Shown here: one piece after another, positions 119-19,589 of the stretch
Numbering within the stretch: the first letter of the stretch is position 1
Layout of the letters: each line of letters begins with the position of its first letter
DNA from: Spirochaetales bacterium
Lineage (GTDB): Bacteria > Spirochaetota > Spirochaetia > JAIPGG01
Length of the DNA: 33,186 bases
Reading direction: 5' to 3'
Assembly (NCBI GenBank): GCA_021736255.1
Contig: JAIPGG010000021.1
Span: 1-33,186 of the forward strand
The notes under the pieces: model-generated
What the model was told of the DNA's origin: nothing
The model's database searches: none
The model's input: the letters and a program-made list of their open reading frames with translations, nothing else
Position numbers and translations under genes: made by a program

Positions 119-829
119 TTACACAAGGTTTGAACCAGTATTTATGAGATGCCCCATTTTCTGCACTTTTGTTTTCAAATAGTTCTCATTGTATCGGTTC
201 TGTTCCGTTACCAGGGGTATCCGCCTTGTCACCTCGATATTTTCTTTTTTGAGACTGTCTATCTTTTCAGGGTTGTTCGTGAGCAGGGCCACCGATTGAA
301 TGCGGAGCAGCCTAGTAATCAGGGCGGCATCAACATAATCACGGGCATCATCGGGGAGGCCGAGAAGGCGGTTGGCCTCAACCGTATCGAGCCCCATGTC
401 CTGAAGGTGATACGCTTTGATTTTATTCAGAAGACCGATCCCGCGCCCTTCCTGGCGAAGGTAGATCACTACCCCGTATTCCTGTTTGCTGATGTACCGA
501 AGAGCTGCTTCCAGTTGATCACGACAATCACAGCGGAGAGAGCCCAATACATCTCCAGTGTGACACTCGGAATGCACCCGCATTGGGCAATCGGTTTTCC
601 CGGCGACATCACCCTGAATAACCGCAGTATGTTCCTTTCCATCCCGTTCATCGAGAAACCCTGCCAGGGTAAAGGTTCCAAAGCGGGTCGGCAACTCCGC
701 CCGGGCCGTAAATTTAATATGATTTAGAACAGAGATTGTCCCGTTCTTGGGATCATCATCACCTTTTCTATATCCGGGGTGACCGTTCACCTTCAAAAGC
801 AACTGTCCTCGTTCTTCTTCAGGGCTCAT
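119..829 (-). CDS. ribA: GTP cyclohydrolase II
   Basis: It opens the imidazole ring of GTP, releasing formate and pyrophosphate, to give 2,5-diamino-6-ribosylamino-pyrimidinone 5'-phosphate, the first intermediate of riboflavin and of some pterin-like metabolites. The 236-residue protein has the family zinc cysteines C89, C100 and C102 in RVHSECHTGD...RCDC, the loop QEGRGIGL (126-133), R163 aligning with the catalytic Arg128 of the E. coli enzyme, LTNNPEK (183-189) and the usual C-terminal KMGHLI. Y140 aligns with E. coli Tyr105, so the complete reaction including deformylation is expected. There is no fused DHBP synthase domain. The ATG at 829 has GAGG about 9 nt upstream. It follows a glycosyltransferase on the same strand after 91 nt holding its own promoter candidate. 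No other classical riboflavin gene is adjacent; its likely partners are the RibD-like, dehydrogenase and PTPS-like genes at 8337-10524. Confidence 0.95.
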   Translation of the reverse strand: MSPEEERGQLLLKVNGHPGYRKGDDDPKNGTISVLNHIKFTARAELPTRFGTFTLAGFLDERDGKEHTAVIQGDVAGKTDCPMRVHSECHTGDVLGSLRCDCRDQLEAALRYISKQEYGVVIYLRQEGRGIGLLNKIKAYHLQDMGLDTVEANRLLGLPDDARDYVDAALITRLLRIQSVALLTNNPEKIDSLKKENIEVTRRIPLVTEQNRYNENYLKTKVQKMGHLINTGSNLV

Positions 830-869
830 TTTTTTTCCTCTACTCTGATTTTTATTATGATCGGGTTAA

Positions 870-898
870 ATAGTAGTAACGGTTCCTGAATAAGTCAA
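870..898 (-). promoter_or_regulatory. Candidate sigma-70 promoter for ribA
   Basis: Reading the minus strand, TTGACT (898-893) and TACTAT (875-870) are separated by 17 nt. Transcription would start near 863, giving a leader of about 34 nt that includes the GAGG ribosome-binding site of ribA. It was assigned by eye. Confidence 0.4.
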
Positions 899-920
899 AT
901 CATATACAGGAAAAGCGGGC

Positions 921-2174
921 TTAGTTCGACTTGGGTGAACAGTGATTGAGGTGATGTCTGTTGATTACTTCCCTGTAGAAATCCTGGAGCATCTCGACAG
1001 AACGATCTATAGTCCAATACTGTGCATAACGGCACGCTTCTGCAGATTTTTCCTGCCACAATTTTCTGTCTACTAACAGCTGGTACACACGGGAGGTGAA
1101 TTCATCCAAATCGGGCTCAGTCATAAACCCTCCATTATCCCCATTCATAATTTCACAGGTTCCCATCCTGCCTACTGCGACTACCGGCAGACCTGATAGC
1201 ATTGCTTCGATGGTTACTAATCCCTGTGTTTCAGTAGTGGAGGGGAAAACGAAGACATCGGATGTGCGATAGAGCATGGAAATAAAATCCGGAGACTGAT
1301 ATCCGATAAGCAAAAACTCATCTTCCCATTCCCGGCCTCTGGCAAGTGCCTTGAGGTATTCGAATTCAGGCCCATTTCCGACGAGCACCGTCGTTAGGCC
1401 GGAGACCTTATCACGAAGTCTCTTGTGAGTTTCCACAAGAAAATTTACATTCTTCTCGTGCGCAACACGGCCGACAAAAAGAAGCCGACGCCTCCCCGAC
1501 AAAGAGGGAAACCGGTTTGTTACTTCCCGTTCCAGCCTCTGCTGCTCTTCCGCTTCCGCCGGCGGTTCCCCACCCGGCCGTACAGGAAAACGCCGGCTGT
1601 TCACACCGGTAGGAATAGACCGTATCGGAACACTCACCTCGTATTCTTCCAGAACCCTCTTCATCTGTGATGTGGGAGTTATAACGCCGCAGCTGCTGTT
1701 ATAGAAATTTCTTTGACTCCTGCGTGCGAGCCATCTGCCGAGGGAATGGGGGACCCAAGGGAAATACAGATTGACGTACTTTTCGAAGTATGTGTGACTG
1801 GTTGCAATCCAGGGAACCCCTCTTTCTTTACAGTACCGGGCCCCTTTGCGCCCCAAGGAAAATTCTGTTTGCACATGAACAAGATCGGGCTGGAATTTAT
1901 CAAGATCATTCCAGATATGCTTTTTCTGCACAGGAGAAACCAAACGGTCTTCTTTGTCGGGTGTCAAAATAAGCTGATACGAGCTGTACCGGTGTACAGT
2001 AAAGTTATAGGTTCTGTCTTTTTCTTGTGTCTTGCGATCTTCTGTCTTGTAATCCGGCACCAGCAATAATACATTATGCCCAGCATTCACTAGCGCTGTT
2101 GCGAATGTTTCGACCGAAATTGTTACACCATTGATGCGGGGCCAAAAAGTATCGGACAGATAAGCTATATTCAT
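921..2174 (-). CDS. GT4-family glycosyltransferase, diacylglycerol-glucosyltransferase-like
   Basis: A 417-residue GT-B fold glycosyltransferase. The N-terminus (MNIAYLSDTFWPRINGV) and overall plan resemble the GT4 enzymes that glycosylate diacylglycerol or phosphatidylinositol on the cytoplasmic membrane face. The nucleotide-sugar half carries a strand with GRVAHEKN and the E-x7-E signature in ETQGLVTIE, followed by AMLSGLPVVAVG. No signal peptide or membrane helix is visible, as expected for a peripheral enzyme. Sugar donor and acceptor cannot be read from sequence. It begins at ATG 2174 with no Shine-Dalgarno sequence but a -10-like TATAGT 9 nt upstream, and diverges from the methyltransferase at 2231. 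A glycolipid role is inferred from the family and from the CDP-alcohol phosphotransferase nearby. Confidence 0.85.
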   Translation of the reverse strand: MNIAYLSDTFWPRINGVTISVETFATALVNAGHNVLLLVPDYKTEDRKTQEKDRTYNFTVHRYSSYQLILTPDKEDRLVSPVQKKHIWNDLDKFQPDLVHVQTEFSLGRKGARYCKERGVPWIATSHTYFEKYVNLYFPWVPHSLGRWLARRSQRNFYNSSCGVITPTSQMKRVLEEYEVSVPIRSIPTGVNSRRFPVRPGGEPPAEAEEQQRLEREVTNRFPSLSGRRRLLFVGRVAHEKNVNFLVETHKRLRDKVSGLTTVLVGNGPEFEYLKALARGREWEDEFLLIGYQSPDFISMLYRTSDVFVFPSTTETQGLVTIEAMLSGLPVVAVGRMGTCEIMNGDNGGFMTEPDLDEFTSRVYQLLVDRKLWQEKSAEACRYAQYWTIDRSVEMLQDFYREVINRHHLNHCSPKSN

Positions 2175-2183
2175 TGTGTAAAG

Positions 2184-2212
2184 ACTATATCAATTTCTTC
2201 TTATTGCGTCTA
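2184..2212 (-). promoter_or_regulatory. Candidate promoter for the 921-2174 glycosyltransferase (leaderless start)
   Basis: On the minus strand, TAGACG (2212-2207) and TATAGT (2189-2184) are 17 nt apart. Only 9 nt separate the -10 hexamer from the ATG at 2174, so transcription would begin within a few bases of the start codon. No Shine-Dalgarno sequence is present, which agrees with a leaderless mRNA. Confidence 0.4.
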
Positions 2213-2230
2213 TTTTTTAGATTGCTTGTT

Positions 2231-3136
2231 ATGAGTATGGATGATGTAAAATCATATTATGATCACAATACCCGGCGTTTTCTGCATTTTGGAGATGGAA
2301 ACCGTGAACAGGTTATACACCGGGCCGTCAATCTACAGATTAAAAATCACCCCTTTGACCTGATGCGCAGCCAGGAGCTCCTGATTTTAGAAGAACTAAA
2401 AGATGTTCCAGCCGGCACGGTTGTGGATCTCGGATGCGGTGTCGGTGCCTCGATGAATTACATTGCCGCCTCCAGATCCGGCAGCTATCGGGGAATAACC
2501 TTGAGCTCCACCCAAGCTGCCGTTGCAGCCCGGACCCTACAGAAACATTCATCTTCCGAAGAGAGTTGCCTTCCAGAGGTCTATGAGGGGAGCTACCTCG
2601 ACCGGGATCTCGTTCGTCGAATCCTCTCTGACCGAAAGACCGCTGCGGCCTATGCGATAGAATCATTCCTCCACTGCCCGGACCCGGCGGAGTTTTTCTC
2701 CCTGTGGTCATCGGTCCTCAAACCGGGAGGCAAACTGATAATTTGTGATGACTTCTCTATCCGGCCGGCTGAGGCGGAAAAGGGGGATACTCGCCGGGAA
2801 CGTTTGCTCCGGGATTTTAAGCGGGGATGGAAGGTAGAAAACCTTCTCGAGGTAAAGCAGGTGAAAGAGCTGGCCGGCAATTACGGTCTAGTTCCGATAG
2901 GCGACAGAGACCTTACCCCCAACCTGGTACTTCAACGCCCGCGTGATCGAATAATCCGGTTCCTGGTTTCTGTTCTCCGTCCCATGGAACTGGGAGAAAG
3001 ACTTCCCTTGCCCTGGAGCTGGTGGCAAAACTTCCTCGGAGGGAATGCCCTGCAGCAGGCGCTTCTTGCAGGAGATCTCAGTTACCGCTTTCTTGTTTTC
3101 CGGAAGCCCGAATCACATCGAGAAAAAACCGGATAA
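2231..3136 (+). CDS. Class I SAM-dependent methyltransferase
   Basis: The 301-residue protein has a Rossmann-type motif I, VVDLGCGVGAS (D66-G72 core), and a later KPGGKLIICDD motif, both typical of class I methyltransferases. The opening YYDHNTRRFLHFG and IHRAV are seen in small-molecule C- or O-methyltransferases related to the tocopherol/sterol group, but the substrate is not determinable. An in-frame TTG at 2174 would add 19 residues; I prefer ATG 2231 because the fold starts there and the extension is hydrophobic and unconvincing. No clear Shine-Dalgarno sequence precedes it. It diverges from a glycosyltransferase, and its last 59 bases overlap the 3' end of the convergent sulfatase-like gene. 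It plausibly methylates the product or lipid made by this cluster (inference). Confidence 0.8.
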   Translation: MSMDDVKSYYDHNTRRFLHFGDGNREQVIHRAVNLQIKNHPFDLMRSQELLILEELKDVPAGTVVDLGCGVGASMNYIAASRSGSYRGITLSSTQAAVAARTLQKHSSSEESCLPEVYEGSYLDRDLVRRILSDRKTAAAYAIESFLHCPDPAEFFSLWSSVLKPGGKLIICDDFSIRPAEAEKGDTRRERLLRDFKRGWKVENLLEVKQVKELAGNYGLVPIGDRDLTPNLVLQRPRDRIIRFLVSVLRPMELGERLPLPWSWWQNFLGGNALQQALLAGDLSYRFLVFRKPESHREKTG

Positions 3137-4820
3137 ACTCATCCATCCGCTGTGCAGGCGGAGACAAATCCGGCTCGAAACCGGCGGAAAAACCGGCCTC
3201 TATAAAGGGAAGGAGCAATTCACTTTTCTTTGAGACCAGATGTATCGGAACTCCCTGTCCTGAATTCCGCTCCCTCACAGGAAAACGAGGCTGATGGTCC
3301 CCTACGATGATGATCAGTGAATCATCCCGAATGAAGTTTACTAAGTAATCACTAATAGTCGTCAAAGAATAATCGATGGACGCAGTGTAACCTTCCGGGT
3401 ATTCATCTCCTGAAAGCCAGCCATTGTCGAAGTAGCTGCTCTCTACCGAATGAAAGATGCTCCCGTCGCTCAATTCTCCCCAATCCTCAACATACCCGGG
3501 AACAATGTGAAAGGGAGTATGGCTGCTGACCATCATGTACATAATAAAACAGGGACGGCCGGCGGGGATTTCTGCAAGCTTTTGGTCGGTAGCAAAAAGA
3601 AAATACTGATCCGGCATATCACCGAAACTGTAGGTCGGGCCGGAATAATCATAGGCCTCTCGGAAGAGGTAGGAATCGAATCGGTAAAAATTCCTCCATG
3701 TTTCGTCCGCCTTGTCCGTCCCCGGGGCTGCCATTACCCGGTGGTATCCGGCTTCGCCGAGTTCGTGGGTGAGGTTTTTACGGCCTGAATGAAGAATTTG
3801 ATCATACGTATGCTGACTGTCAATCCACACTCCCGTAAGGAGGGTCGCATCAGAAAACCAGGAACGACCTCCGGTGGTAGGAGCTTCTATAAAGCCCGAG
3901 ACCGAAAAATATCCCGCTTCAGTTAGCTGATTTTCGATCTCTGCATACCGCTCGCTAATAAGCCGGTAGTGGTCTTCCCGGGAAAAAAGTGTTCTCCCGT
4001 AGGATTCGATAATAAAAAGATGAATATCCCGTCCGTCCAGGAAAGGAAATGACTCGGCGGCTGCTTCCCGTAAAGGACTTGGTTCTTTTGGCCGATCGTC
4101 TTTTGCAGTCGGGGAGCCCTGGGATGAAGAATTCCCGTCCTCATGGACCGGATTCTGTGTTCGGGATGGAGGCTGAGACTGAGACAACTCAGCATGAGAG
4201 TCTTCAAACTGGACTCGGGAGGGTGGAATCAACTGACGTCCCATTCTTGCAGATATCGGTGTTCCCCCCGGAAAAAACAGAGCCGGCAGAAGAAGGAACA
4301 ACGGAATGAGAAGGGCTTTTTTCCCGAGCGGCTGAATTGTTCGTCGCAGTTTCGTGATCGAAAACCTGATCCCACACGCACTACCTGCAACCACAGCAGC
4401 TATGAAAAGTACATACAGAATCTGCAGAAAAACCGTGGTCTCGCCGAGCATCATCTTGATCAACGGTCCGAGAAACCTCAGATCGGACCAGGGGACAAAT
4501 CCACGAGAAAAAACATAACGATTAAAGGCTTCTCCCAAGCCGAACAGGAAAATGACCAGAAAAACCGCCGATATTACCCATTCGATGCGGCGAAGTTCCT
4601 GCCCGTCCTTTTTTGTTCGTATCCAAGAAGCGAGCACAAACCAGAGGGCCAACCCTACTGTTTCAAAAGATGGAACGATCAGCCAAAGAAATCGGTACTC
4701 AGGGAGCCAACGATAAACGGTAAGCGCTGTGTTCAACACAAAGAGCATGGCAATCATGCTGAGAATGCGGTAGAGGTTCTTCCTGTTCCGTATGCCTTCT
4801 CGATTATTATTCTGCTTCAC
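3078..4820 (-). CDS. LTA-synthase/sulfatase-like membrane phosphotransferase (alkaline phosphatase superfamily)
   Basis: The 580-residue protein starts with about five hydrophobic helices within residues 1-190, then a Pro/Ser-rich linker near 205-260, then an extracytoplasmic alkaline-phosphatase-superfamily domain. Visible motifs are IHLFIIESYG (near 270, metal-binding Glu), TTGGRSW (near 313, where related enzymes carry the catalytic Thr or Ser) and IIIVGDHQP (near 510, metal-binding Asp-His). Relatives transfer glycerol phosphate or phosphoethanolamine, or hydrolyse phosphate or sulfate esters, outside the membrane. The start is GTG at 4820 with AAAGGA 8 nt upstream, inside the end of the preceding gene, so translation is probably coupled. 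It is last in a three-gene minus-strand unit with the CDP-alcohol phosphotransferase fusion and a glycosyltransferase, supporting a role in decorating a lipid or envelope polymer. Confidence 0.8.
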   Translation of the reverse strand: MKQNNNREGIRNRKNLYRILSMIAMLFVLNTALTVYRWLPEYRFLWLIVPSFETVGLALWFVLASWIRTKKDGQELRRIEWVISAVFLVIFLFGLGEAFNRYVFSRGFVPWSDLRFLGPLIKMMLGETTVFLQILYVLFIAAVVAGSACGIRFSITKLRRTIQPLGKKALLIPLFLLLPALFFPGGTPISARMGRQLIPPSRVQFEDSHAELSQSQPPSRTQNPVHEDGNSSSQGSPTAKDDRPKEPSPLREAAAESFPFLDGRDIHLFIIESYGRTLFSREDHYRLISERYAEIENQLTEAGYFSVSGFIEAPTTGGRSWFSDATLLTGVWIDSQHTYDQILHSGRKNLTHELGEAGYHRVMAAPGTDKADETWRNFYRFDSYLFREAYDYSGPTYSFGDMPDQYFLFATDQKLAEIPAGRPCFIMYMMVSSHTPFHIVPGYVEDWGELSDGSIFHSVESSYFDNGWLSGDEYPEGYTASIDYSLTTISDYLVNFIRDDSLIIIVGDHQPRFPVRERNSGQGVPIHLVSKKSELLLPFIEAGFSAGFEPDLSPPAQRMDEFIRFFLDVIRASGKQESGN

Positions 4821-4824
4821 CGCA

Positions 4825-6489
4825 TCAATCCTTTAAAACCGCATAAATATCACCCGAAGGTTCGTTGCCGCGCAACCCATTCAAGAATTTTCTCACTTCT
4901 TCCCCGTCCTGCCATTGGTCCCAATACCACTTCATACTCTCGGTCTGCGAAAGGTTATACTGGTACCCGCCCACTGTTTCGATATGATCGAGACATGCCA
5001 GGGCAACCTCCGGATCAGGAGGAAGAAATTCGAAGGAAAACCGGGGAAGCGGCCGGTCGAGCCCCCGGAGGACCTGCATCTCCGCCCCTTCCACATCGAT
5101 TTTTACAAAATCGGGAGTCCCGTATTCACGGATGAGCTGAGCAAGGGTAGTAATTTGAATCCTCTCATCGGCTTTTTGCCAAGTGATACCGGCGAAGGCC
5201 TCGGTATTCGAAACCCGCTCGATCCATTCGGCTGATAAGGTCGTTAGTGTCGGGCTCTGGTCACAGACGTACAGATCCGCACTTCCCTTCCGTTCACCCA
5301 CGGCTTCAAAATGAAGTTTCACGCCTGGGTCTTTCCCGTAACGGCTCTCGAGAATCCTCCTGCAGTAAGGCTGGGGTTCAAGGGCTACCACCTGTGCTCC
5401 GAGGTCTCGAAAGACCCGGATACGGTTTCCCACATGCGATCCGATATCAAATAAAAGCCGGGCCTCGGGAATAAGACGGCGGTAAAAACGCCTCATCCGC
5501 CGCCTTCGTCCGGGAACCCAGTAGTAGACTGCTATTGAGTGCAATAACCCCCACAAAAAACGGCAGCTGCCCCGTTTCTGTTCGTGCCCGCTTCTGTTTT
5601 TTCCCCCTCCGCTGCAGTAAGTAACCGGCCACAGAAGGCGCAGCACCAACTCAATCAAGAAAGAAAGGAGAATCAACCCTGTGGCTGCTACAGCCAAAAG
5701 ATCAGTCATCGGAGAACCGAAAAAGGGAGCTGCGGCAGCAGTCAGCATCCCCATGGCTACAGCGGTAGAGGATTTTGCATACAACACAAAGGGGCGAGGA
5801 AATTCACTCCGGTCGGGGAGAAATTGAAAGATGATGAAAAAACCATACCGGGCCAAGCCGGTCAAAGCGGTATAGACCGGCAGGCCCCATCCGAGAACTC
5901 CGCCTACACTCAGGGCATAGAGGAAGAAGGCATCCGACTCCATATCCCACCGGGCTCCGAAGGGAGTCGGGCCATATTTTCTGGCAATGATCCCGTCAAA
6001 AGCATCACTTGCTGCGGCCGCAGCCAGCAAGAGTAGAAGCCACATTTCTTTTCCCGGTCCACTTACGCTCAATACCAGAAACAGCAGGAAGGCTGCAGCC
6101 GGTCTAACGGAGGTAACCAAATCCGCTGCCGGTATCCCCGAAGAACTCTTACCTGCGAAACTCGACGAATCGGCAGGCCCCTGGTTCGGAGCAAAACCCT
6201 GGCCAGGCGCAGATCGCTGAACCGATTTGCCGCCCTTTGCTTGCCGTGCATCCCGAAGAGTAAAAAAGAGGAGGCCGCAGAGCCCCCAAATCCCCGCCGC
6301 CAAAGCAAACCACGGCAAGGGAAGGAGGGAAGAAGCTCCGGCCGAGATCGGCCCGGCGGCTTCGGCCGTCCACCTCCAGCCTACAAAACTCCCGAGGGGG
6401 AGGCCGCACAACGCCCACACAATCATACCAAGCGAATAGACTGTATAGCCGATATTCGGCAATCTTTGCGGCTTCATCTTCGATTTCAT
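4825..6489 (-). CDS. Fusion of CDP-alcohol phosphotransferase and FkbM-type methyltransferase
   Basis: One uninterrupted 554-residue frame holds two enzymes. The first ~300 residues are a polytopic membrane domain with the CDP-alcohol phosphotransferase signature: DAFDGIIAR (near 160-168), then GARWDMESD (near 176-184). All four Asp, the two Gly and the AR pair are present; the AR-to-Gly spacing is 7 rather than the more usual 8. Such enzymes transfer a phospho-lipid group from CDP-activated lipid to an alcohol. The last ~210 residues are an FkbM methyltransferase with LLFDIGSHVGN (near 345), VALEPQP and FVKIDVEGAE (near 458). I chose ATG 6489 because it overlaps the upstream stop as ATGA and has GGAG upstream; an ATG at 6558 would overlap the upstream gene by 73 bp. 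The fusion suggests one pathway attaches and methylates the headgroup (inference). Confidence 0.85.
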   Translation of the reverse strand: MKSKMKPQRLPNIGYTVYSLGMIVWALCGLPLGSFVGWRWTAEAAGPISAGASSLLPLPWFALAAGIWGLCGLLFFTLRDARQAKGGKSVQRSAPGQGFAPNQGPADSSSFAGKSSSGIPAADLVTSVRPAAAFLLFLVLSVSGPGKEMWLLLLLAAAAASDAFDGIIARKYGPTPFGARWDMESDAFFLYALSVGGVLGWGLPVYTALTGLARYGFFIIFQFLPDRSEFPRPFVLYAKSSTAVAMGMLTAAAAPFFGSPMTDLLAVAATGLILLSFLIELVLRLLWPVTYCSGGGKNRSGHEQKRGSCRFLWGLLHSIAVYYWVPGRRRRMRRFYRRLIPEARLLFDIGSHVGNRIRVFRDLGAQVVALEPQPYCRRILESRYGKDPGVKLHFEAVGERKGSADLYVCDQSPTLTTLSAEWIERVSNTEAFAGITWQKADERIQITTLAQLIREYGTPDFVKIDVEGAEMQVLRGLDRPLPRFSFEFLPPDPEVALACLDHIETVGGYQYNLSQTESMKWYWDQWQDGEEVRKFLNGLRGNEPSGDIYAVLKD

Positions 6490-7985
6490 TTGTTCTCCGG
6501 TTTTCGGGAAGGACAGGGCGTCCGAGTCAGTTCTTCCACTGCTTTTGCAAAACACCATCCCATTTTCTCCGCCGCGCGGGAATACCCACCCATCCCGCCG
6601 GCATTCTGAGCTTGAGCTGCGGCAGAATCGGCTGCCTCTGCTGCAAGTTTTGCGCGCCAGGCATCATCCAGCAAGTAAAGCTGAAGGAAACTCCGCCAAA
6701 CCGGCCGGTCTCCGGGCGGCAGCAAAACAGCTCCCCACCCCTCTTTTGCTGCCTCCGGCACTCCCCCGACCCGGGAAACAGCCACCGGAGTCCCCACCGA
6801 CAAGGCTTCGGCAGCAACCATCCCGTAACTCTCGAACCGGGAAGGCATAATTACAAGATCTGCTTCCCGGTACTTCTGAAATAATTCTGCCGGCGACAGG
6901 CTCCCAAGAATTCGAATCCGCCGGCCAAAAGGAGAAGAGGAAATTTCTTTTTCCACCAGCGCAGTGTAATCTTTGTCGAAACTCCTGTCCCCCGCGAGTT
7001 CGAGTATCCAAGGCTGTTCTTCTTTTCCGCTGGGGCCGGGGCTGGGTTTGGGGCCGGCGGAGACGGTCGATAACGGTACCGAAGAGCCTTCACCGGTGTT
7101 CAGATTCAGCGACAAAAAGATTCGTACCAAAAACAGAATATTCTTGTTCGGGTGCCAGTTCGCCGGCAGCAAAAACCGTACTGGTCCGGCAGCCCCCGCC
7201 GGCAATCCGCCACCGGAAACCGGCGAGAAGGCGGCCCCAGTCTCCGGTGCCCCAGTCTCCGGTGCCCCCTCCTCCAGTGCCCCGCTCTCTGGGACCCCAG
7301 CCTCCGGTGCGGGAATGTTCGAATCCACACCGGTACCGGCGAAAGCCTTGCCGCCGGGAATTTCCACCAGCGGCCGGCATACCCGAATGAGATCTTTCTC
7401 GAAGCCCCGCCGGCAAAGCTCCTCTTCGAGAAAACAGCTCACTGTGATACAGCCTTCTGCTCCGGAGAACCAGGCTTGCTCATTCTGCCGGAGCCCTTCT
7501 CCTGCCAGAGAGGGTAAATAATGCAGCAAAAGCAGGAGCGGGACTCCCAGCTCTCTTGCCGCAGAGAAAATTTTTTTTCGGGAGGAGGGCTTACAAACGG
7601 AAAGGGCGAGACTGTCCAAAACAAGAATTGTTTGCATTCTATCACTCTGAAAAGGCCCGGCTTCAGCAGCCCCCTTGCCGCCGAACTCGGCGCTGACGGC
7701 GGCCTTATCCCCAGCGCTCTTGTCGAAGCTTCCGGCACTGGCGCCCTGTGCTCCTGCACTGCCGAGAACCTGAGCAGCGGCAGTGTCGCCGGAATCTCCG
7801 GTCCGGATTTCCAGTAACCGGTCCCGCACCTTCTGAGCGAACTCGGCAGGTTCTGCAGCAAGTTCTTCTCCCTCCCAGTCTGTCTCCTTCAACCCGGAAA
7901 GAAGGCGTTGGTTGTATACCGCTCCCCCCGATAGAGGAGAGGAGCTTTTTGCCGGTACCGCCAGAATGATCCGCCCGCGTGTCAT
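6486..7985 (-). CDS. GT4-family glycosyltransferase with low-complexity insertions
   Basis: A GT-B glycosyltransferase of 499 residues from ATG 7985. The C-terminal half shows FLLPANWHPNKN, a DLVIMPSRFESYG stretch and the E-x7-E region ESYGMVAAEA followed by SVGTPVAVSRVGG, all typical of GT4 enzymes. Two Ala/Gly/Pro-rich insertions interrupt the fold: one around residues 75-110 and one around 235-265 built from xPExG pentapeptides. They are probably surface loops. An alternative TTG start at 8021 would add 12 residues; MTRGRIILAV begins the first beta strand and a -10-like TACACT lies 6 nt before this ATG, suggesting a leaderless start. Its stop overlaps the next start (ATGA). It heads the unit 7985-3078. 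The substrate is unknown; an envelope or lipid-linked glycan is the likely context. Confidence 0.82.
   Translation of the reverse strand: MTRGRIILAVPAKSSSPLSGGAVYNQRLLSGLKETDWEGEELAAEPAEFAQKVRDRLLEIRTGDSGDTAAAQVLGSAGAQGASAGSFDKSAGDKAAVSAEFGGKGAAEAGPFQSDRMQTILVLDSLALSVCKPSSRKKIFSAARELGVPLLLLLHYLPSLAGEGLRQNEQAWFSGAEGCITVSCFLEEELCRRGFEKDLIRVCRPLVEIPGGKAFAGTGVDSNIPAPEAGVPESGALEEGAPETGAPETGAAFSPVSGGGLPAGAAGPVRFLLPANWHPNKNILFLVRIFLSLNLNTGEGSSVPLSTVSAGPKPSPGPSGKEEQPWILELAGDRSFDKDYTALVEKEISSSPFGRRIRILGSLSPAELFQKYREADLVIMPSRFESYGMVAAEALSVGTPVAVSRVGGVPEAAKEGWGAVLLPPGDRPVWRSFLQLYLLDDAWRAKLAAEAADSAAAQAQNAGGMGGYSRAAEKMGWCFAKAVEELTRTPCPSRKPENK
7234..7308. repeat. Five tandem 15-bp units inside the GT4 gene
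   Basis: Five 15-bp units lie head to tail; the first two (7234-7248 and 7249-7263) are identical, GCCCCAGTCTCCGGT, and the other three diverge. On the coding strand they give xPExG pentapeptides such as APETG, VPESG and ALEEG. The array is in frame, so gain or loss of units would change only loop length. Confidence 0.85.
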
Positions 7986-7991
7986 GGATAT

Positions 7992-8021
7992 AGTGTACTC
8001 AGCCCGGAGCAACAAGAGCAA
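7992..8021 (-). promoter_or_regulatory. Candidate promoter of the GT4 / CDP-alcohol transferase / sulfatase-like operon
   Basis: On the minus strand TTGCTC (8021-8016) and TACACT (7997-7992) are 18 nt apart, and the ATG at 7985 follows the -10 by 6 nt. No Shine-Dalgarno sequence is visible. The match is modest, but the geometry repeats that of other first genes in the window. Confidence 0.3.
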
Positions 8022-8098
8022 GAAATTACGAGCGCGCGGTTTCTCATTCGCAGCGTGAAGCCGAACGTGCCGGAGAAACCTTGGTTTTCCGCGGGCGG

Positions 8099-8122
8099 GC
8101 CCGGCACACGGCCCGGCACACG
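8099..8122. repeat. 12-bp perfect tandem duplication
   Basis: GCCCGGCACACG occurs twice in direct tandem. Degenerate relatives of it recur about 60 and 110 bp further on within the same spacer. Confidence 0.85.
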
Positions 8123-8298
8123 CCGGTCGGTGGCTGCGTACAGTGGGCGGGCCTGCGTAAGGCAGGCGTGGCCGTCACACGCCGGGCTGTGGCTGTGCTT
8201 AGCCGGCGTGGCCGGCGCACAGTCCCTCGGGACAGGCCGATGGGGCTCGAACCGGGCCTGCAGAATCCGGCCCGAGCGGCCGGCCGTATCGCTCCAGG

Positions 8299-8327
8299 TT
8301 GCAGCGGCTCCCTCGCCCGTCTATAGT
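8299..8327 (+). promoter_or_regulatory. Candidate sigma-70 promoter for the RibD-like / MDR / PTPS-like operon
   Basis: TTGCAG (8299-8304), a 17-nt spacer and TATAGT (8322-8327). The ATG at 8337 lies 9 nt past the -10, leaving little or no leader, and there is no Shine-Dalgarno sequence. This is the best-looking promoter in the cluster. Confidence 0.5.
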
Positions 8328-8336
8328 ATAACTATT

Positions 8337-9083
8337 ATGGAGCGCCCGCATGTTACTCTCAGCTTCGCTCAGAGTGTAGACGGAAGACTTGCAACGATTA
8401 CCGGGGATTCCCAATGGATTTCCGGCCGGGCCGGGCTGAAGGCTGCTCATCGCCTCCGCCGCGACAGTGATGCAATTCTCGTCGGTTCGGGAACTGTTCT
8501 CGAGGACAACCCTCTTCTTACCTGCCGGATTCGTTCCTGCAGAGGCAGAACTCCTCTCCGGATAGTTCTGGACCGGAGACTCAGGATCCCCCTCGATTGC
8601 CGGCTTGTACAAACCTCCGGCGAGGTCCCGCTGCTCATCTACACATCGGAGGGGGCCGATCGGCAAAAACGGGCCCTCCTCGAAAATGCAGGGGTTGAAA
8701 TTATTGAGCTTGAACACGGCCCTCCGGAAAAAATGGAAGCCTCACCGACAGACAGGCTGCCCGTTGAAGGAATTGAAGAAAAGGAAACCCGTACAAGGCT
8801 CCTCGCTTTGGTTCTACAAAATTTGGCAAGACGCGGAGTAAAAAACCTCATGGTTGAAGGCGGGGCTGAGATTGTTACGACCTTTCTTCGCTCAGGATTT
8901 GCCGACAAAGTTATGATTGCAATCGCCCCCATTTTTATCGGTACTGGGAAAGAGGCTGTGGGAGATCTGGAAACCGGCCTTCTCTCCGAGGCTCTCCGGC
9001 CCTCAAAATCACGGCCTCGCCGTTACAGAGATGAAATACTCTGGGAGATGGAATTCAAGCCGGCGGGAGAAGAAAATGAGTAA
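8337..9083 (+). CDS. Stand-alone RibD C-terminal-type (dihydrofolate-reductase-fold) pyrimidine reductase
   Basis: The 248-residue protein matches the reductase half of RibD: SFAQSVDGRLA (9-19), the SQWIS element, GSGTVLEDNPLLT (50-62), LMVEGGAEIVTTFL and PIFIGTG. In riboflavin synthesis this domain reduces the ribosyl side chain of the GTP cyclohydrolase II product with NADPH. The deaminase domain that usually precedes it is absent, and a charged insertion sits around residues 131-157. ATG 8337 is chosen because the family begins just before the SVDG strand and a promoter abuts it. Its stop overlaps the dehydrogenase start by 8 bp (ATGAGTAA). Placed with a dehydrogenase and a PTPS homologue, it probably reduces a ribA-derived intermediate for a product other than flavin (inference). 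Confidence 0.82.
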   Translation: MERPHVTLSFAQSVDGRLATITGDSQWISGRAGLKAAHRLRRDSDAILVGSGTVLEDNPLLTCRIRSCRGRTPLRIVLDRRLRIPLDCRLVQTSGEVPLLIYTSEGADRQKRALLENAGVEIIELEHGPPEKMEASPTDRLPVEGIEEKETRTRLLALVLQNLARRGVKNLMVEGGAEIVTTFLRSGFADKVMIAIAPIFIGTGKEAVGDLETGLLSEALRPSKSRPRRYRDEILWEMEFKPAGEENE

Positions 9084-10080
9084 TACCGGCACCGCACGGG
9101 TTGTCTTTTTTTCCGGCAACCGGGAAATTGAGATCCGCGAAGAACCTGTGTCCCTGAAACCCGGTCAGATCCTCGTCCAATCAGAGGCAATGGGAATAAG
9201 CCACGGTACTGAGCTTTTGGCATACCGGGGGGAACTGCCGGCAGGGATTGAGACAGACACCGGCATCAAGGCTCTAACCGGCAAGATAGACTATCCTCTC
9301 CGCTACGGGTATATGAATGCAGGCTACGACCAAGAGCAGAGACCTGTTTTTGCCTTTTATCCCCATCAGGACAGATTTGCCGCAGAACCGGATGAGCTAT
9401 GGTACCTCCCTGCCGGCATGCACCCGGAGAGGGGCATCTTTCTTCCTCAGATGGAAACCGCCCTTTCGATAGTCCAGGATGCAGCCCCCCTCTTCGGGGA
9501 AACGGTACTTGTTGCAGGCCTCGGTGTGGTAGGACTATTAGTTACCCGCCTTCTTCTTCTCAACGAGGGGCTGAGGGTCATCACCCTCGAACCCGCCTCA
9601 TTACGCCGGGCAGCTGCGGAAGAGGCCGGTGCTATTTCCATCGATCCCGGTTCAGCAGGGAAAACCCCGCCATCCCTTGCCGAACAAATTCTGGACAGCA
9701 ACAAGGGGCGGGAGGCGGATACGGCAATTAATTTGAGTTCAACCAACAGCGGAGCACAGATCTGTCTCGACAGTCTTGTATACGAGGGCAGCCTCATCGA
9801 GGCCTCCTGGTACGGATCAAAAGAGAGCCGTCTGAAACTAGGCTCTTCCTTTCACCGGAAGCGGCTTTCCATACGTTCGAGCCAGGTCTCTACAATCGAT
9901 CCGGCTCTCCGCGGCCGGTGGGACAAAAAGCGGCGTTTCGAGCTGTGCATGGACCTGCTCGATCGCATCGAGCCTGAACGGTATATAACCCATCGCTTTC
10001 CCCTTAGGGATGCGGCGGAGGCCTTCGACTTGATCGACCGTCATCCGGAAGATACCATACAGGTTGTCCTAAAACCCTAA
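9076..10080 (+). CDS. Medium-chain dehydrogenase/reductase, zinc-ligand-poor (BchC-like)
   Basis: A 334-residue MDR-superfamily protein. The N-terminal GroES-like domain has ILVQSEAMGISHGTELLAYRG, where classical alcohol dehydrogenases have a zinc-binding Cys but this protein has Ser-His. The cofactor domain has GLGVVGLLVTRLL, a Rossmann Gly-rich turn, ending in a Glu-containing strand (VITLEP). The structural-zinc Cys cluster is not present, so it is probably a zinc-independent NAD(P)(H) oxidoreductase resembling BchC and the MDR proteins of pterin-like clusters. ATG 9076 has GGGAG upstream and overlaps the reductase stop by 8 bp; a longer frame to 8917 would run far into the reductase gene. 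The PTPS-like gene follows after 27 nt. A role in oxidising or reducing a side chain of the pathway intermediate is inferred. Confidence 0.75.
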   Translation: MSNTGTARVVFFSGNREIEIREEPVSLKPGQILVQSEAMGISHGTELLAYRGELPAGIETDTGIKALTGKIDYPLRYGYMNAGYDQEQRPVFAFYPHQDRFAAEPDELWYLPAGMHPERGIFLPQMETALSIVQDAAPLFGETVLVAGLGVVGLLVTRLLLLNEGLRVITLEPASLRRAAAEEAGAISIDPGSAGKTPPSLAEQILDSNKGREADTAINLSSTNSGAQICLDSLVYEGSLIEASWYGSKESRLKLGSSFHRKRLSIRSSQVSTIDPALRGRWDKKRRFELCMDLLDRIEPERYITHRFPLRDAAEAFDLIDRHPEDTIQVVLKP

Positions 10081-10107
10081 TATATCGGCAACCCTGAAGG
10101 AGCAATT

Positions 10108-10524
10108 ATGTTTCGCGTTGGAGTAGGCGGCAATTATACGGCACGACATTTTCTGATCGGTGATTTCGGAGAAGAATCGACCCCCCATGAGCACCGTTAT
10201 GATGTGCGCTGGATCCTGGAAACCGGAAAACTCGATGAGAACGGTTTCTCCGTGGATATTGCACTTCTCGAATCGATCATAGAAACGTGCCTTGACCGTT
10301 ACGATGGTGTCCTCATGAACGACCTGCCCTGGTTCAAAGGAAAACAGCCGAGTGTGGAAAATACCGCGATGTTTTTAACCGAAGAAATCTTTTCCCGTCT
10401 GCAAAATGCAGAGACTGTTCCCGGCAATCTTCTTTCGAGCGAGCTTCAGGTCTTTGAGTCTCCCACTTCCTGGGCTTCCTACCGGATTGATGGGGAGGGA
10501 ATTGCTCAGCTTCTCCGGCTGTAA
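10108..10524 (+). CDS. 6-pyruvoyl-tetrahydropterin synthase / QueD homologue with altered catalytic residues
   Basis: A 138-residue T-fold protein. H14, H27 and H29 (ARHFL...HEHRY) match the three zinc histidines, SVENTA (82-87) matches the PTPS TxEN segment, and E117 in VFESPTSWASY matches the Glu that anchors the pterin ring. The catalytic Cys expected four residues before the HxH motif is Glu23, and the catalytic His in the LDH motif appears to be Arg (LDR, 62-64). It could therefore bind a pterin or pyrimidine but is unlikely to do the standard PTPS or QueD reaction; Glu in place of Cys recalls PTPS-III enzymes. ATG 10108 has AAGGAG 6 nt upstream. It is the third gene after the reductase and dehydrogenase, and its last 19 bases overlap the convergent SdpI-like gene. 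Confidence 0.8.
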   Translation: MFRVGVGGNYTARHFLIGDFGEESTPHEHRYDVRWILETGKLDENGFSVDIALLESIIETCLDRYDGVLMNDLPWFKGKQPSVENTAMFLTEEIFSRLQNAETVPGNLLSSELQVFESPTSWASYRIDGEGIAQLLRL

Positions 10525-14969: not shown

Positions 14970-15976
14970 TCTGTTCCTCGTGTGTTTTCTTGTTTTCGCG
15001 TTCCGGAGCGTTTCGTATCCCCGGCTCCTGCCTCCAGGAAACGGCTTCGCAGCTGCTGGTTGCCGGGATATGCGTCGGCCGGAATGACACCGCCTCCCAT
15101 ATGGATGTGCCCCCCTCCCTGGCCGATGTCTCCAAGTGTCTGTTTCAAAATAATTCCTGCTGCTCGATAGGGGTCATTGCTTCGCACAGACAGGTTATAT
15201 CCGTCTTCGCTCCGATAGACAAGAACCACAAAGCGGATCTCCCGCAAATTCAGGAAAAAATCCGCCAGGATGCCAGAGACCTCCTGATTGCAGGAATCCT
15301 CCAGAACCACATAGGCAAAATCACCAGAGAGCACCAGGCTGTCGAGGGCCTTCCGGAATATCCCGAGATCCTCGATGGAAAGCGCATTCTTGAGCAGGTA
15401 GCTGCCGCGGTTCCAGTCTCCTTTCTGATAGAGACGGTAGAAGGCATCAAGGTCTTGCTGTTCCACTCCCCGGGTCAGATAGGCGGTATCCATCATGATC
15501 CCCATCAGAAGGATGGAGGCAAGATTCCGCTCGAACTCAGTTCCGACCGCCGCCAGATACTCGTAAATGATCGAGGCACAGGCACCGTATTCAGTGCGTA
15601 TGTCCGCATAAGGAACAGTGGGTTCCCATGGCGGAGGATGATGGTCGATCACCCCGATCACCCTTCCTCCTATGCTGCTCACATTCTTGTTGCCGAGAAA
15701 GCCGTCCACAATAATTATCTGATCTGACTCGACCACATCCACTTCTTCAAACCGCTCGAGGGGAACCTGGAAATCAACCACCGCATCCCGCAGGGACGCG
15801 CTCTGCAGAAGGCCCCCGTAACAGACAATCACCGTGTACCCGGCATCATCAAGAAGGCGGAACATGCCGAAGGCCGCAGCCACCGCATCGTGGTCCGGAT
15901 AATCATGGGTCTGCACGAGAACCCTGGAATCCCGGTCGAGAAGAGAAAAAAGCTTTTCCGGTCCAAGACCGCTCAA
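14966..15976 (-). CDS. DHH/DHHA1-family phosphoesterase (NrnA-like)
   Basis: The 336-residue protein has the DHH-family metal motifs: H24, D28 and D30 in QTHDYPDHDA, D91 in IIVDGF, D111-H112-H113 in VIDHHPP, and an MMDT motif near 170. The C-terminal DHHA1 domain ends with GQGGGHIHMGGG. Relatives such as NrnA hydrolyse short oligoribonucleotides, phosphoadenosine phosphate or cyclic-dinucleotide products; which one applies here is not readable. The start is TTG at 15976, supported by GGGGAGG 4 nt upstream and by a TTGA overlap with the upstream TPR stop. It sits in the middle of a coupled three-gene unit. A GGDEF protein occurs elsewhere in the window, so a nucleotide-signalling role is possible but unproven. 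Confidence 0.88.
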   Translation of the reverse strand: MSGLGPEKLFSLLDRDSRVLVQTHDYPDHDAVAAAFGMFRLLDDAGYTVIVCYGGLLQSASLRDAVVDFQVPLERFEEVDVVESDQIIIVDGFLGNKNVSSIGGRVIGVIDHHPPPWEPTVPYADIRTEYGACASIIYEYLAAVGTEFERNLASILLMGIMMDTAYLTRGVEQQDLDAFYRLYQKGDWNRGSYLLKNALSIEDLGIFRKALDSLVLSGDFAYVVLEDSCNQEVSGILADFFLNLREIRFVVLVYRSEDGYNLSVRSNDPYRAAGIILKQTLGDIGQGGGHIHMGGGVIPADAYPGNQQLRSRFLEAGAGDTKRSGTRKQENTRGTE

Positions 15977-17529
15977 TCGTCCTCCCCGCGGTTTTCAGAA
16001 TTGAGACGGGAAAGCTCCCACTCAGCAAGTTCATATTCAGGAAAACTGGGAAACGGATATTCCGTGACTTTCTTCAGATACTGTCTTCCCATGTACTCCT
16101 TTTCCTGCATGAGGGATGTTACCCCCAGGTAGAAGAGCATACGGTGGCGAAGTAGTTCGTCTTTCGCGTTGTTCACCTTTTCGGTGATGTAACCGTCGTT
16201 GCTTGTGACCATCAGGTACCGGGCCATTTCATAATAGAGTGTCTCTCTTGGGAACTTGCCCAGATAGGCCTCCAGCAGTTCCTTCGCCTGGTTTTTCTGG
16301 TCGGTTTTGAGGTAGGTAAGCCCTGCCAGCAGGACGGCTTCGTATCGCTGCCCTTCGTGCTCGAAAGCATCGAGATACCTCGCCCGGGCTTTATTCCACT
16401 CCTGCTGCATGTAATAGATCTGGGCCAGGGGAAAGTAGCTGAAATGATACTCCGGCTTCTTTTCGATAACCTCGCGATAATCATCGATAGCCGCCTCGAG
16501 GCTGCCGAGTTCCTTGTTGATGCCGGCCCGGTAGACATAGGGGTAAAAAATCTCCGGATTCAGCTCGATCGCCCGGGAAAAATCCTCACGGGCTGCTTCA
16601 GGGTGACCGGCCCTCAAACGCAGCTTTCCCCGGTCGATATAATGCCAGTAATAATCCGGGTTCATTTCGATCGCCCTGCTCAAGTCGCGGTCTGCTGCTG
16701 CCGGTTTATTGAGTGACTCGAGCACCCTGCCGCGGTCGGCATAGGGAAAGGAGATTTCCGGTTCCTGTGCGATCACCCGATCGAGATATCCTCGGGCCTT
16801 CTCAAACTCAGAATCGCGTATCTTTATGTTACCGAGGCCGGTAAGGGCGACCAGGTTGTCTTTGTCTTCCTCGAGAACACGCTGAAAGGCCTTTTCCGCC
16901 TTTTCTTTGTTTCCCTCGGTGAGTTCGAGTTCTCCCAGCGAGGCCCGAGCATCAACAAAGCTCGGGTCCGCCTCGAGGGCCTGTCCGAGTCGTTGGCGCC
17001 GAAGCTTGGTGTCTTCGTTGAGTCCGGCAATCAGGGCCAGAAAATAGTGGGCCTCCGCCTCTTGCCGAGGAGAGAGCTGCTCTCCGGCCTTTGCCGCCCC
17101 GGATTCTTCCGCTTTTTCTAAACCGGCAAGCACCTCCTCGAACAGCCGGCCGGCCTCTTCCAAACGGGCGGCATAGAAATTGAGCTTGGCCAATTCGAGC
17201 TTCGTCCGAAGAGAATCAGCATCGGAAGCCTTGGCCTCTTCGTATTTCCGAATAGCCTCTTCAGGGTTGCCGGCGGCTATGGCCGCCGAAACGGACTGAT
17301 AGATATTCTCCGGTTCGGGGAGTGCAGGTTCTTTCCGTTCCGCCGGCGGGGCTTTTTCCTGCCGGCTATCAGGGCCCGCGGTACAGCCGCCGAGCAGCAG
17401 AGCGATGATCACCCCGAGAAAAACCGGGATCGCAACCAGGGGGAAAGGGCTCGGGAAAACCGTCCGATTCGACGAACGTGCACTCCCGGCAACAGATGTA
17501 GTGTCCAATAAATCGAAATCGCGTTTCAT
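15973..17529 (-). CDS. TPR-repeat lipoprotein
   Basis: From ATG 17529 the protein is 518 residues. A hydrophobic stretch ends in LLLGGC with Cys49, a lipobox suited to signal peptidase II, so it is probably tethered to a membrane; the signal is long, so an uncleaved anchor is possible. From about residue 85 on, the sequence is a run of roughly nine tetratricopeptide repeats, such as EKAEKAFQRVLEEDKDN and PAAADRDLSRAIEMNPD, which normally form a protein-binding superhelix. ATG 17529 is 9 nt after GGAG; ATG 17535 is too close and an ATG at 17577 lacks support. It is the first gene of the unit with DHH phosphoesterase and TraB protein, and diverges from the 17610 gene. Confidence 0.82.
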   Translation of the reverse strand: MKRDFDLLDTTSVAGSARSSNRTVFPSPFPLVAIPVFLGVIIALLLGGCTAGPDSRQEKAPPAERKEPALPEPENIYQSVSAAIAAGNPEEAIRKYEEAKASDADSLRTKLELAKLNFYAARLEEAGRLFEEVLAGLEKAEESGAAKAGEQLSPRQEAEAHYFLALIAGLNEDTKLRRQRLGQALEADPSFVDARASLGELELTEGNKEKAEKAFQRVLEEDKDNLVALTGLGNIKIRDSEFEKARGYLDRVIAQEPEISFPYADRGRVLESLNKPAAADRDLSRAIEMNPDYYWHYIDRGKLRLRAGHPEAAREDFSRAIELNPEIFYPYVYRAGINKELGSLEAAIDDYREVIEKKPEYHFSYFPLAQIYYMQQEWNKARARYLDAFEHEGQRYEAVLLAGLTYLKTDQKNQAKELLEAYLGKFPRETLYYEMARYLMVTSNDGYITEKVNNAKDELLRHRMLFYLGVTSLMQEKEYMGRQYLKKVTEYPFPSFPEYELAEWELSRLNSENRGEDD

Positions 17530-17571
17530 TCTCATAAGCTCCGGAGGCCATGATACCGTTTCCCCCTTCTG

Positions 17572-17600
17572 TTGCACAACCGCATGTGCGCTGGTACAAT
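17572..17600 (+). promoter_or_regulatory. Candidate sigma-70 promoter for the 17610-20272 gene pair
   Basis: TTGCAC (17572-17577), a 17-nt spacer and TACAAT (17595-17600), then 9 nt to the ATG at 17610. No Shine-Dalgarno sequence is present. Geometry is identical to the promoter at 8299-8327. Confidence 0.45.
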
Positions 17601-17609
17601 ACAGCGCCG

Positions 17610-19589
17610 ATGAAAAACAGCAGGATATCCCGGAAACTATTTATCATACCCGCCCTCTACATCATTATCGTAGGGGCGCTCATATATCTCCATTTTCAGC
17701 CGGAAAACGGCTTCCAGTCCTCGATCGGGAATATAACAGCCTCAGGCAGAGCCAGAGGAGCCCCAGGCAATTTTCAGGAGAACCCGAAAGAACTCTCGAT
17801 AAGCCTGCCCGCTTTGTCGATGAGTTTTCAGAACGATGACGCTCTCTACGTTGAAACAGCAGACGGGGCGGGCCGATCCTTGAGCTTGACCGGCTTCACT
17901 GAGAACGAAAACGGCTTTACTCTCTCTTTCGACGAACAGCTGCAACTCAGTTTCACCTCAGGCGGAGAGGACGATAGCCGGGCAACCATTTCCATCGATG
18001 CAAATAAGGAAGTTACTACCGTCTATTTGCCCTGGCAGCCGGAAAACGGCTATGAACTCTACCAGCAGACAGGAACACCGGTATTGCACCTGACAGGACG
18101 GAGCGGGGGGCGTCTTGTCGCCCTCTCTCCCGGAGCTTCCCTTATGAAGGGACGAAATCAGATAGCCCTTCCCCTTCTTTCAACAGGACCGGCGGGAATG
18201 AGAATTACCGATTCCGATACCCGGCAGACAGCCTGGATCAGGACCTCCGGGATCGCAGAACCCGGCGAAGCGGGGGCCCGCCCCTTTAAAAGATGGTTAC
18301 AACAAGCAGCCGGGGAGACCGGGGAACAAGAGTACCGGGAAACAGTAGAAAAATACATCAATGCCGCCTACCGCGGGTGGCGGGAAGAGCGCTTCAACCG
18401 GCAAGAGGGGACCTGGCAGATGCCCGGCGGGCAAAGCCGTTTCAGCGAGAAAATCCTCACTGCCACACTCGCAGAATCACTCGAACGCACTGCTTACACC
18501 ACCGTACTCCGGGATATGCGCAATGCAGCCGAAGACCATCGGCAGGCGCTCAGCTCACTGTCGAATTCCTACCTGGGCAACCTGATACCGACTACCGCCG
18601 CCTTTCTCCGGCGGCAGGAAGAGAAAATCTCACAGTATAAGCGGCTTATTCGAGCGGAAGATCCTGCTCTCTTTCTCGAAGACGATCTTCTACAGAAAAC
18701 CCTCAATGCAGGCGAACAGGCTCTCCTGGAACAGATTGCCGAATTTGCAGACCGGCTGGGCGGAGGACTCGAGCCGGAAAAACCCTTGCTCGCCGGGAAT
18801 CTTCCTGCCTCTGAGGTTCTGCTTGGCCTTGCAAACTGCTACCTCGAGGCACGGGACCTCGATCTCGATTCTGTCGGTGTTTTCCGCCCCTTCGCAGAAA
18901 TTACCGGCAGCAAGCTGGAGCATTCACTCTACCGGTTCGGCAATGAAATCTTCCTGCTGGATTCCGACCATACTATTGCTCCGTGGCTCAGTCTTCGCTT
19001 CGGCATGACTTTGCAGGCGATCGCTGCTCTACCGGACAGCCCTGCGGAGGATCCGGAATATTTTGCCTCACTCGGAAGAACTCTTGTTGTCTCCGCCCTA
19101 TCGAGACAAGATGAGTACGGGTTCCTTCCCGCTGCGAAAGGAAGTGAGAAGGAATCTGAGAGAACAGCTGAATCTTCCGACAGCGGATCCCCGGCACGAA
19201 GCAGCTCCGCGGGACCTGCGGAGGTCTATCCGCTCATCTCCGGCAACAATTATTATCCGCACGCGGTCAGCCTCAACCAGGAATTGGGTCCAGGTTACTG
19301 GCTCTGGACTACTTCCAATCGGGTCAGGGTCGAAGCCGGTCCCGACAGGATTCGCCTGCGCATCAGCTTTCCTGTAGACGGCAGCCATCATTTTACACTT
19401 CACGGTATTACGGAGTTCGAAGAGATTCAAATCTTCAATATCCCCTGGAAGAGCGATCCGAACTACGAGATCTATTCTACCGGCTGGCGCTACGACAGAG
19501 AAAACGAGGCGCTTCACATCAAACTGCGGCACCGTTCACCGGAAGAGACCATTGATATCTATTTCGAGGCACCGGAGAGAGAGGGATGA
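17610..19589 (+). CDS. Unrecognised 659-residue membrane-anchored protein
   Basis: I do not recognise a family. An N-terminal helix (about residues 9-28, LFIIPALYIIIVGALIYL) would anchor it, leaving nearly the whole protein outside the cytoplasm. Residues 55-220 look beta-rich, the middle (about 230-400) is helical and charged, and the last 80 residues are again beta-rich, with IYSTGWRYDRENEALHIKL resembling the closing beta-sandwich seen after some carbohydrate-active domains; this resemblance is weak. A Ser/Gly-rich linker lies near residue 520. ATG 17610 is chosen because the hydrophobic anchor follows it directly and a promoter abuts it; the frame is open upstream to 17550. Its stop overlaps the histidine phosphatase start as ATGA, so the two are co-translated. 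Confidence 0.65.
   Translation: MKNSRISRKLFIIPALYIIIVGALIYLHFQPENGFQSSIGNITASGRARGAPGNFQENPKELSISLPALSMSFQNDDALYVETADGAGRSLSLTGFTENENGFTLSFDEQLQLSFTSGGEDDSRATISIDANKEVTTVYLPWQPENGYELYQQTGTPVLHLTGRSGGRLVALSPGASLMKGRNQIALPLLSTGPAGMRITDSDTRQTAWIRTSGIAEPGEAGARPFKRWLQQAAGETGEQEYRETVEKYINAAYRGWREERFNRQEGTWQMPGGQSRFSEKILTATLAESLERTAYTTVLRDMRNAAEDHRQALSSLSNSYLGNLIPTTAAFLRRQEEKISQYKRLIRAEDPALFLEDDLLQKTLNAGEQALLEQIAEFADRLGGGLEPEKPLLAGNLPASEVLLGLANCYLEARDLDLDSVGVFRPFAEITGSKLEHSLYRFGNEIFLLDSDHTIAPWLSLRFGMTLQAIAALPDSPAEDPEYFASLGRTLVVSALSRQDEYGFLPAAKGSEKESERTAESSDSGSPARSSSAGPAEVYPLISGNNYYPHAVSLNQELGPGYWLWTTSNRVRVEAGPDRIRLRISFPVDGSHHFTLHGITEFEEIQIFNIPWKSDPNYEIYSTGWRYDRENEALHIKLRHRSPEETIDIYFEAPEREG

Follow-up and report, generated by a model that had tools for sequence, protein, structure and literature searches.

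A CDP-alcohol phosphotransferase fused to an FkbM methyltransferase recurs in spirochaetes, in a gene cluster for a candidate pterin-like pathway

Here, we describe a spirochaete protein of 554 aa in which a CDP-alcohol phosphotransferase and an FkbM methyltransferase share one open frame (4825..6489, minus strand), an arrangement found in 16 of 297 sampled genomes of the same class. All positions without a locus name refer to the window, by which we mean the whole stretch of 33,186 nucleotides that was analyzed. We regard the protein as a two-domain inner-membrane enzyme that very likely belongs to one dedicated biosynthetic pathway. Our best explanation of the whole is that the fusion acts in a pathway leading from GTP to a pterin-like product, which would be glycosylated and phospho-modified at the membrane; we consider this an evenly balanced proposition.

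Two complete domains in one frame

The frame runs for 554 uninterrupted codons and ends in a stop codon. A mechanical reading of the open reading frame starts at 6558 and yields 577 aa; we prefer the start at 6489, because its ATG overlaps the stop codon of the upstream GT4 glycosyltransferase gene (ATGA) and is preceded by GGAG. The CDP-OH_P_transf domain (residues 122-265; 5695..6126, minus strand) scores 43.7 bits with PF01066 against a Pfam cut-off of 22, and the FkbM domain, Methyltransf_21 (residues 348-488; 5026..5448, minus strand), scores 49.4 bits with PF05050 against a cut-off of 22.7. The FkbM part also scores 80.1 bits with the NCBIfam model fkbM_fam (TIGR01444, cut-off 37.7) and contains the SAM motif FDIGSHVGN. 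An earlier note made from the sequence alone had read both domains as complete in a single frame, and this reading is borne out.

In the AlphaFold model of the protein, six helices (121-293) are followed by a Rossmann-type domain (309-554). The pLDDT is 72.5 overall and exceeds 84 across most of the methyltransferase; CDP-alcohol phosphotransferases have six transmembrane helices with both ends in the cytoplasm, and the six helices of the CDP domain come from a model of moderate confidence, hydropathy at a strict threshold recovering part of them. SAM-methyltransferase folds head the Foldseek match list, and a profile of the fusion family has PgsA as its best PDB match (7drj, E 6.8e-9), with further CDP-alcohol enzymes also matched. 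The protein resembles CDP-alcohol phosphotransferases (PF01066, such as PgsA) in its full signature, its modelled six-helix core and its score above the cut-off, whereas it differs from them in being joined to a methyltransferase and in the length of its signature loop, which is 7 residues in the window and 7-13 across the spirochaete fusions. The second domain resembles FkbM O-methyltransferases in exceeding both cut-offs and in its SAM motif, but it would be tethered to the membrane through the CDP domain. FkbM O-methyltransferases known so far mostly stand alone.

The CDP-alcohol signature, DxxDGxxAR...GxxxDxxxD, is complete in the window's fusion (DAFDGIIARKYGPTPFGARWDMESD; 5932..6006, minus strand, by motif reading), and its residues are invariant over eight aligned fusions. 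Among 30 members of the family, the spacing from AR to G is 8 in nearly all split genes and in the fusions from Rhodospirillales, 7 in the window, in L010/L014 and in the separate gene of L012, and 11-13 in the remaining spirochaete fusions. The 7-residue spacing that the earlier note had singled out is thus present but does not hold as a distinctive trait, since loop lengths of this order vary ordinarily in the family. The stretch between AR and G is a variable loop and no new catalytic signature.

The fusion recurs across families of spirochaetes

The 16 genomes that carry the fusion in one frame (G000, G015, G047, G049, G067, G084, G101, G156, G175, G181, G193, G211, G229, G247, G278 and G281) fall into 8 families and 10 genera. 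The copy in G015 is truncated by a contig end and is counted among the 16; the copy in G047 lies on one complete chromosome of 3.8 Mb. Identity of the other fusions to the window's protein is 28-40%. About eight other genomes of the 297 encode the CDP and FkbM domains as separate genes. A scan of genome contigs with the fusion as a single sequence gave no matches; a four-row alignment used as the query retrieved 189 relatives. Outside the spirochaetes, two Rhodospirillales MAGs (L017 and L020) also carry the fusion, and otherwise the CDP and FkbM domains are mostly encoded by two genes. A triple fusion suspected in the 1046-aa frame of L020 was rejected: its N-terminal half has no sulfatase match and resembles an out-of-frame translation from a high-GC genome.

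These observations bear on the possibility that the fusion is an artefact of assembly or annotation, or a frameshift joining two genes; the earlier note had set an assembly error against its own reading. In favour of an artefact, the assembly that contains the window is a draft in 133 contigs, and most homologues outside the spirochaetes are split. Against this, the fusion stands in a complete chromosome and in 8 families at the low identity given above, and we give an artefact virtually no weight; independent recurrence refutes it. The earlier view that the architecture is uncommon agrees with its frequency in the class and with the predominance of split genes elsewhere. The note had also asked whether the fusion recurs with the same neighbours; it does, but outside the spirochaetes the homologues are mostly split.

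Some of the split genes may indicate how the fusion arose. In rhizobial plasmids, such as that of Peteryoungia, the CDP and FkbM genes are adjacent and in the order of the fusion, and in Rhizobium sp. SL42 they overlap by 4 bp; a gene pair that preceded the fusion would be expected to have this arrangement. In the trees, the spirochaete and Rhodospirillales fusions fall apart, but the AU test does not reject a single clade, and with it one origin of the fusion (p 0.10, 0.20). A Rubrivivax MAG (L087 5831-8311) encodes a CDP-alcohol domain fused to an LtaS-like domain (826 aa) and not to FkbM.

The genes of the window's cluster

In the window, the fusion is part of a conserved cluster of nine genes (119-10524), which the earlier note had not recognized as a GTP-derived biosynthetic set. 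The GT4 gene whose stop overlaps the fusion start (6486..8021, minus strand; PF00534), the fusion itself and a gene for a membrane LtaS/EptA-like transferase of the alkaline-phosphatase superfamily (3078..4820, minus strand), which starts 4 bp past the fusion stop, appear to form a single minus-strand operon. Beyond these lie a class I SAM methyltransferase (2174..3136, plus strand; PF08241), a family that also adjoins the fusion in L009, L011, L015 and L019, a further GT4 glycosyltransferase (921..2174, minus strand; PF00534/PF13439) and GTP cyclohydrolase II (119..829, minus strand; PF00925, E 1.3e-60). The latter is a second genome copy, the other being on contig C51, and it keeps the Cys ligands, with the motifs C-x10-C-x-C and YLRQEGR. 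No cytidylyltransferase was found in the cluster. Elsewhere in the window, a 679-aa open reading frame (17550-19589) has no Pfam match at E 0.001.

On the other side of the operon, three plus-strand genes encode a RibD_C-type reductase without a deaminase domain (8055..9083, likely start 8334; PF01872, 4.3e-44; TIGR01508, 126.8 bits), a zinc-type, BchC-like dehydrogenase, here called ADH (9076..10080, by profile and PDB matches), and a PTPS/QueD-like protein (10108..10524; PF01242, 73.5 bits against a cut-off of 22.4). The absence of a deaminase domain is shared with the archaeal and fungal 2,5-diamino-6-ribosylamino-pyrimidinone 5'-phosphate reductase and with bacterial RibD_C proteins, and strong PDB matches span the domain's first half (6p8c, E 3.9e-26; 2b3z, E 1.4e-27). 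A second RibD_C is encoded elsewhere in the genome. Unlike the archaeal and fungal enzyme, the window's reductase scores below the equivalog cut-off of TIGR01508 and is clustered, or in relatives fused, with a dehydrogenase. The ADH has weak PDB matches that include arabinitol and sorbitol dehydrogenases. Reductase and dehydrogenase form one protein in L009 (11701-13512), L010 (5049-6839) and L011 (7312-8949). A frameshift separating the two in the window, suspected from these loci, was discarded, as the 8-bp overlap comes with a proper stop and a proper start and the genes are separate.

The LtaS/EptA-like protein scores 23.3 bits with Pfam Sulfatase (PF00884), below the cut-off of 25, and its relative in L010 scores 38.9 bits. 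Its best PDB folds are LtaP/LtaS (E 1.9e-9), followed by MCR-1, EptC and GacH. LtaS, MCR-1, EptC and GacH transfer phospho-alcohols from phospholipids to acceptors. In an alignment, E272, S320, H434, D508 and H509 are invariant and are placed like the metal and nucleophile residues, with Ser at the position that is Thr in LtaS; the version of the alignment that served for folding leaves out one row from a plasmid record. We predict that it works like LtaS/EptA, whose fold it shares, without classing it as LtaS.

The cluster is conserved across six phyla

A set comprising GTP cyclohydrolase II, RibD-type reductase, polyol-dehydrogenase-like ADH, PTPS/QueD-like protein, one or two GT4s, SAM methyltransferase and LtaS/EptA-like protein was found in Spirochaetota, Pseudomonadota, Bacteroidota, Chloroflexota, Myxococcota and Actinomycetota. 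Largely the same genes surround the fusion in L009, L010, L011 and L015, and the gene order with ADH, PTPS and GT4 is kept across phyla. In L009, on the complete genome G047, two adjacent overlapping open reading frames (15905-18603) look like a single acylase-type gene that a frameshift has broken in two.

We retrieved 85 loci with a related FkbM by means of the most conserved stretches of the fusion; since these loci are mutually related, their counts describe an association and not a random sample. At least three of GTP cyclohydrolase II, RibD_C, ADH and PTPS are present at 32 of the 85, and there GT4 occurs at 30, CDP at 27 (7 fused, 20 split), and the LtaS-like protein and the SAM methyltransferase at 20 each. 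At the 41 loci that have none of the four, GT4 is found at 0, CDP at 7 and the LtaS-like protein at 6.

The association extends to genomes in which the genes are dispersed. In family f43 the fusion lies apart from the pterin-type genes, and a RibD_C and ADH pair is encoded elsewhere in the genome. Such a pair is present in all 11 further fused genomes which, with the five that have it in the cluster, makes 16 of 16. Among seven fusion-less genomes, which were our own choice and are, like the others, related to one another, none (0/7) has an ADH match at the same threshold, and three have matches to the RibD_C part alone. The set of CDP, FkbM and LtaS-like genes also occurs without nearby pterin-type genes, in family f43, in L019 and in several Chloroflexota, so that this membrane module may also have a part in making different products.

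Two further genes join the cluster outside the spirochaetes, one for a flippase-like protein of the LPG_synthase_TM family and one for cytochrome b561. The cytochrome is found in the proteobacterial version of the cluster (L094 13039-13566, L098 12988-13527 and L099 12491-13048), and its membership hints at a redox role for the cluster product. In a Saprospiraceae cluster, a sulfotransferase gene (L038 4322-5206) lies directly before FkbM, and genes of similar size occupy this place in related Bacteroidota loci. The megaplasmid pNG700 of Haloarcula marismortui carries a related cluster with CDP, ADH, PTPS and GT4 (L095 3223-11452). GTP cyclohydrolase II was not found in this stretch and a creatininase-family gene lies nearby; this may be the two-enzyme system that replaces GTP cyclohydrolase II in archaea. 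Modified pterins occur in haloarchaea, a fact that we do not use as evidence here.

Riboflavin and folate supply do not explain the cluster

Three of the four carriers tested (G000, G047 and G049) have a second RibD_C and GTP cyclohydrolase II close together elsewhere in the genome. These separate riboflavin-type pairs indicate that the cluster copies are dedicated paralogues, and we rejected riboflavin supply as the role of the cluster on this ground. Folate supply was likewise rejected as a general role: G047 has folE2 and HPPK, and no folE, folE2 or HPPK was seen in G000 (82% complete) or G049 (90%), both drafts. The cluster is not simply a riboflavin or folate pathway.

The PTPS-like protein has an altered active site

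Aligned with the genome's own QueD, the PTPS-like protein has Glu in place of the catalytic Cys and has lost the catalytic His of the Asp-His pair. Glu at the Cys position is common to the PTPS-like proteins of spirochaetes and several others, and the spirochaete type keeps the three zinc His. A second type, in rhizobia and Saprospiraceae, carries FGPAQxLHGA and lacks the Cys/Glu and the third zinc His, so that two subtypes occur within the same cluster (the window's protein; L042 8378-8776 and L094 9985-10383). The family retains a C-terminal Glu aligned to that of QueD, which we take to be the residue that anchors the pterin. With both the catalytic Cys and the catalytic His missing, normal PTPS chemistry is unlikely. 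In the PTPS of Plasmodium (PTPS-III), Glu replaces the active-site Cys (PMC2229834). This replacement is the only one shared by the two proteins, and the window's type differs from PTPS-III in lacking the catalytic His.

A proposed route from GTP to a membrane product

Given this gene content, the product of the cluster is probably GTP-derived and pterin-like. In our model, GTP cyclohydrolase II would open GTP to diamino-ribosylamino-pyrimidinone phosphate, and the deaminase-less RibD_C reductase would convert the ribosyl to a ribityl group, as in archaea and fungi; by established chemistry, these two enzymes lead to 2,5-diamino-6-ribitylamino-pyrimidinone phosphate. The polyol-dehydrogenase-like ADH would then oxidize the ribityl side chain, for which C2' is the simplest position, and the 5-amino group would close the dihydropterin ring. 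GTP cyclohydrolase I forms a keto intermediate by Amadori rearrangement; oxidation of the ribityl 2'-hydroxyl by the ADH would yield this same intermediate, and the three steps together would circumvent GTP cyclohydrolase I. The PTPS-like protein may process the pterin-like compound, a step made uncertain by its altered active site, and the GT4 and SAM methyltransferase enzymes would decorate it.

At the membrane, the CDP domain would use a CDP-activated lipid, probably ordinary CDP-diacylglycerol as the cluster has no cytidylyltransferase, to make a phospholipid that may carry some uncommon alcohol, or else the pterin product, as its headgroup. The fused FkbM domain, which by the topology and the location of SAM we place on the cytoplasmic face, would O-methylate the headgroup or its sugar, and on the outer side of the membrane the LtaS/EptA-like enzyme would either load the product with the phospho-headgroup or strip it off. 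The fusion would thus hold the lipid-joining and methylating steps together, and CDP domains fused to FkbM, or to an LtaS-like domain in L087, are consistent with consecutive steps. That FkbM methylates the headgroup made by the CDP domain is made plausible by the neighbourhood, namely the CDP-LtaS-like fusion in one MAG and the adjacent CDP and FkbM genes of rhizobia, and we put it slightly below an even chance; the methyl group could just as well go to a sugar or to the pterin-like product.

Discussion

Two other readings of the fusion must be weighed against a GTP-to-pterin-like pathway. The enzyme could belong to general surface-glycolipid or polysaccharide synthesis of a teichoic-acid-like kind. 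In that case, the CDP, FkbM and LtaS-like proteins would make a methylated phospho-polyol and transfer it, and the GTP-derived genes would be neighbours or a side-branch. The LtaS-type fold and the GT4 genes would fit, as would the fusions without adjoining pterin-type genes in family f43 and L019 and the several Chloroflexota in which CDP and FkbM are separate genes that likewise lack such neighbours. But a RibD_C and ADH pair is present somewhere in every fused spirochaete genome tested and the ADH-PTPS-GT4 order persists across phyla, and so we consider this reading rather unlikely.

The product might instead be a ribityl-pyrimidine or a flavin- or deazaflavin-like cofactor with no pterin, the CDP domain accepting ribityl-phosphate to give a lipid-linked ribityl-pyrimidine. 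Established riboflavin chemistry gives a ribityl-pyrimidine phosphate from GTP cyclohydrolase II and RibD_C alone, the PTPS-like active site is degenerate, and CDP-alcohol enzymes, among which PgsA is the best PDB match of the fusion, can accept phosphorylated acceptors such as glycerol-3-phosphate. This scheme gives no role to the ADH and the PTPS-like protein, which are the most constant genes of the cluster and have none in flavin synthesis, and we judge it distinctly unlikely. The pterin-like pathway that we prefer can also be stated at its fullest, as a cross-phylum pterin route without GTP cyclohydrolase I that ends in a glycosylated, methylated pterin lipid, membrane-anchored or on the surface, with the CDP-FkbM fusion joining the lipid and methylating and with a haloarchaeal relative; in this full form it is a tentative and somewhat doubtful proposal.

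We found no description of the fusion or of the cluster in the open literature, which was the scope of our search. Both domains are known, and the architecture is a new recurrent arrangement of two known enzyme families; the pathway, if our reasoning holds, would be newer than the fusion itself. The fusion serves as a signpost, as it links a lipid-headgroup step and O-methylation to enzymes that open GTP, reduce, oxidize and resemble PTPS. If the proposed chemistry is true, many bacteria would contain a pterin-like molecule new to science and associated with their membranes, and the pterin ring could be reached in a second way.
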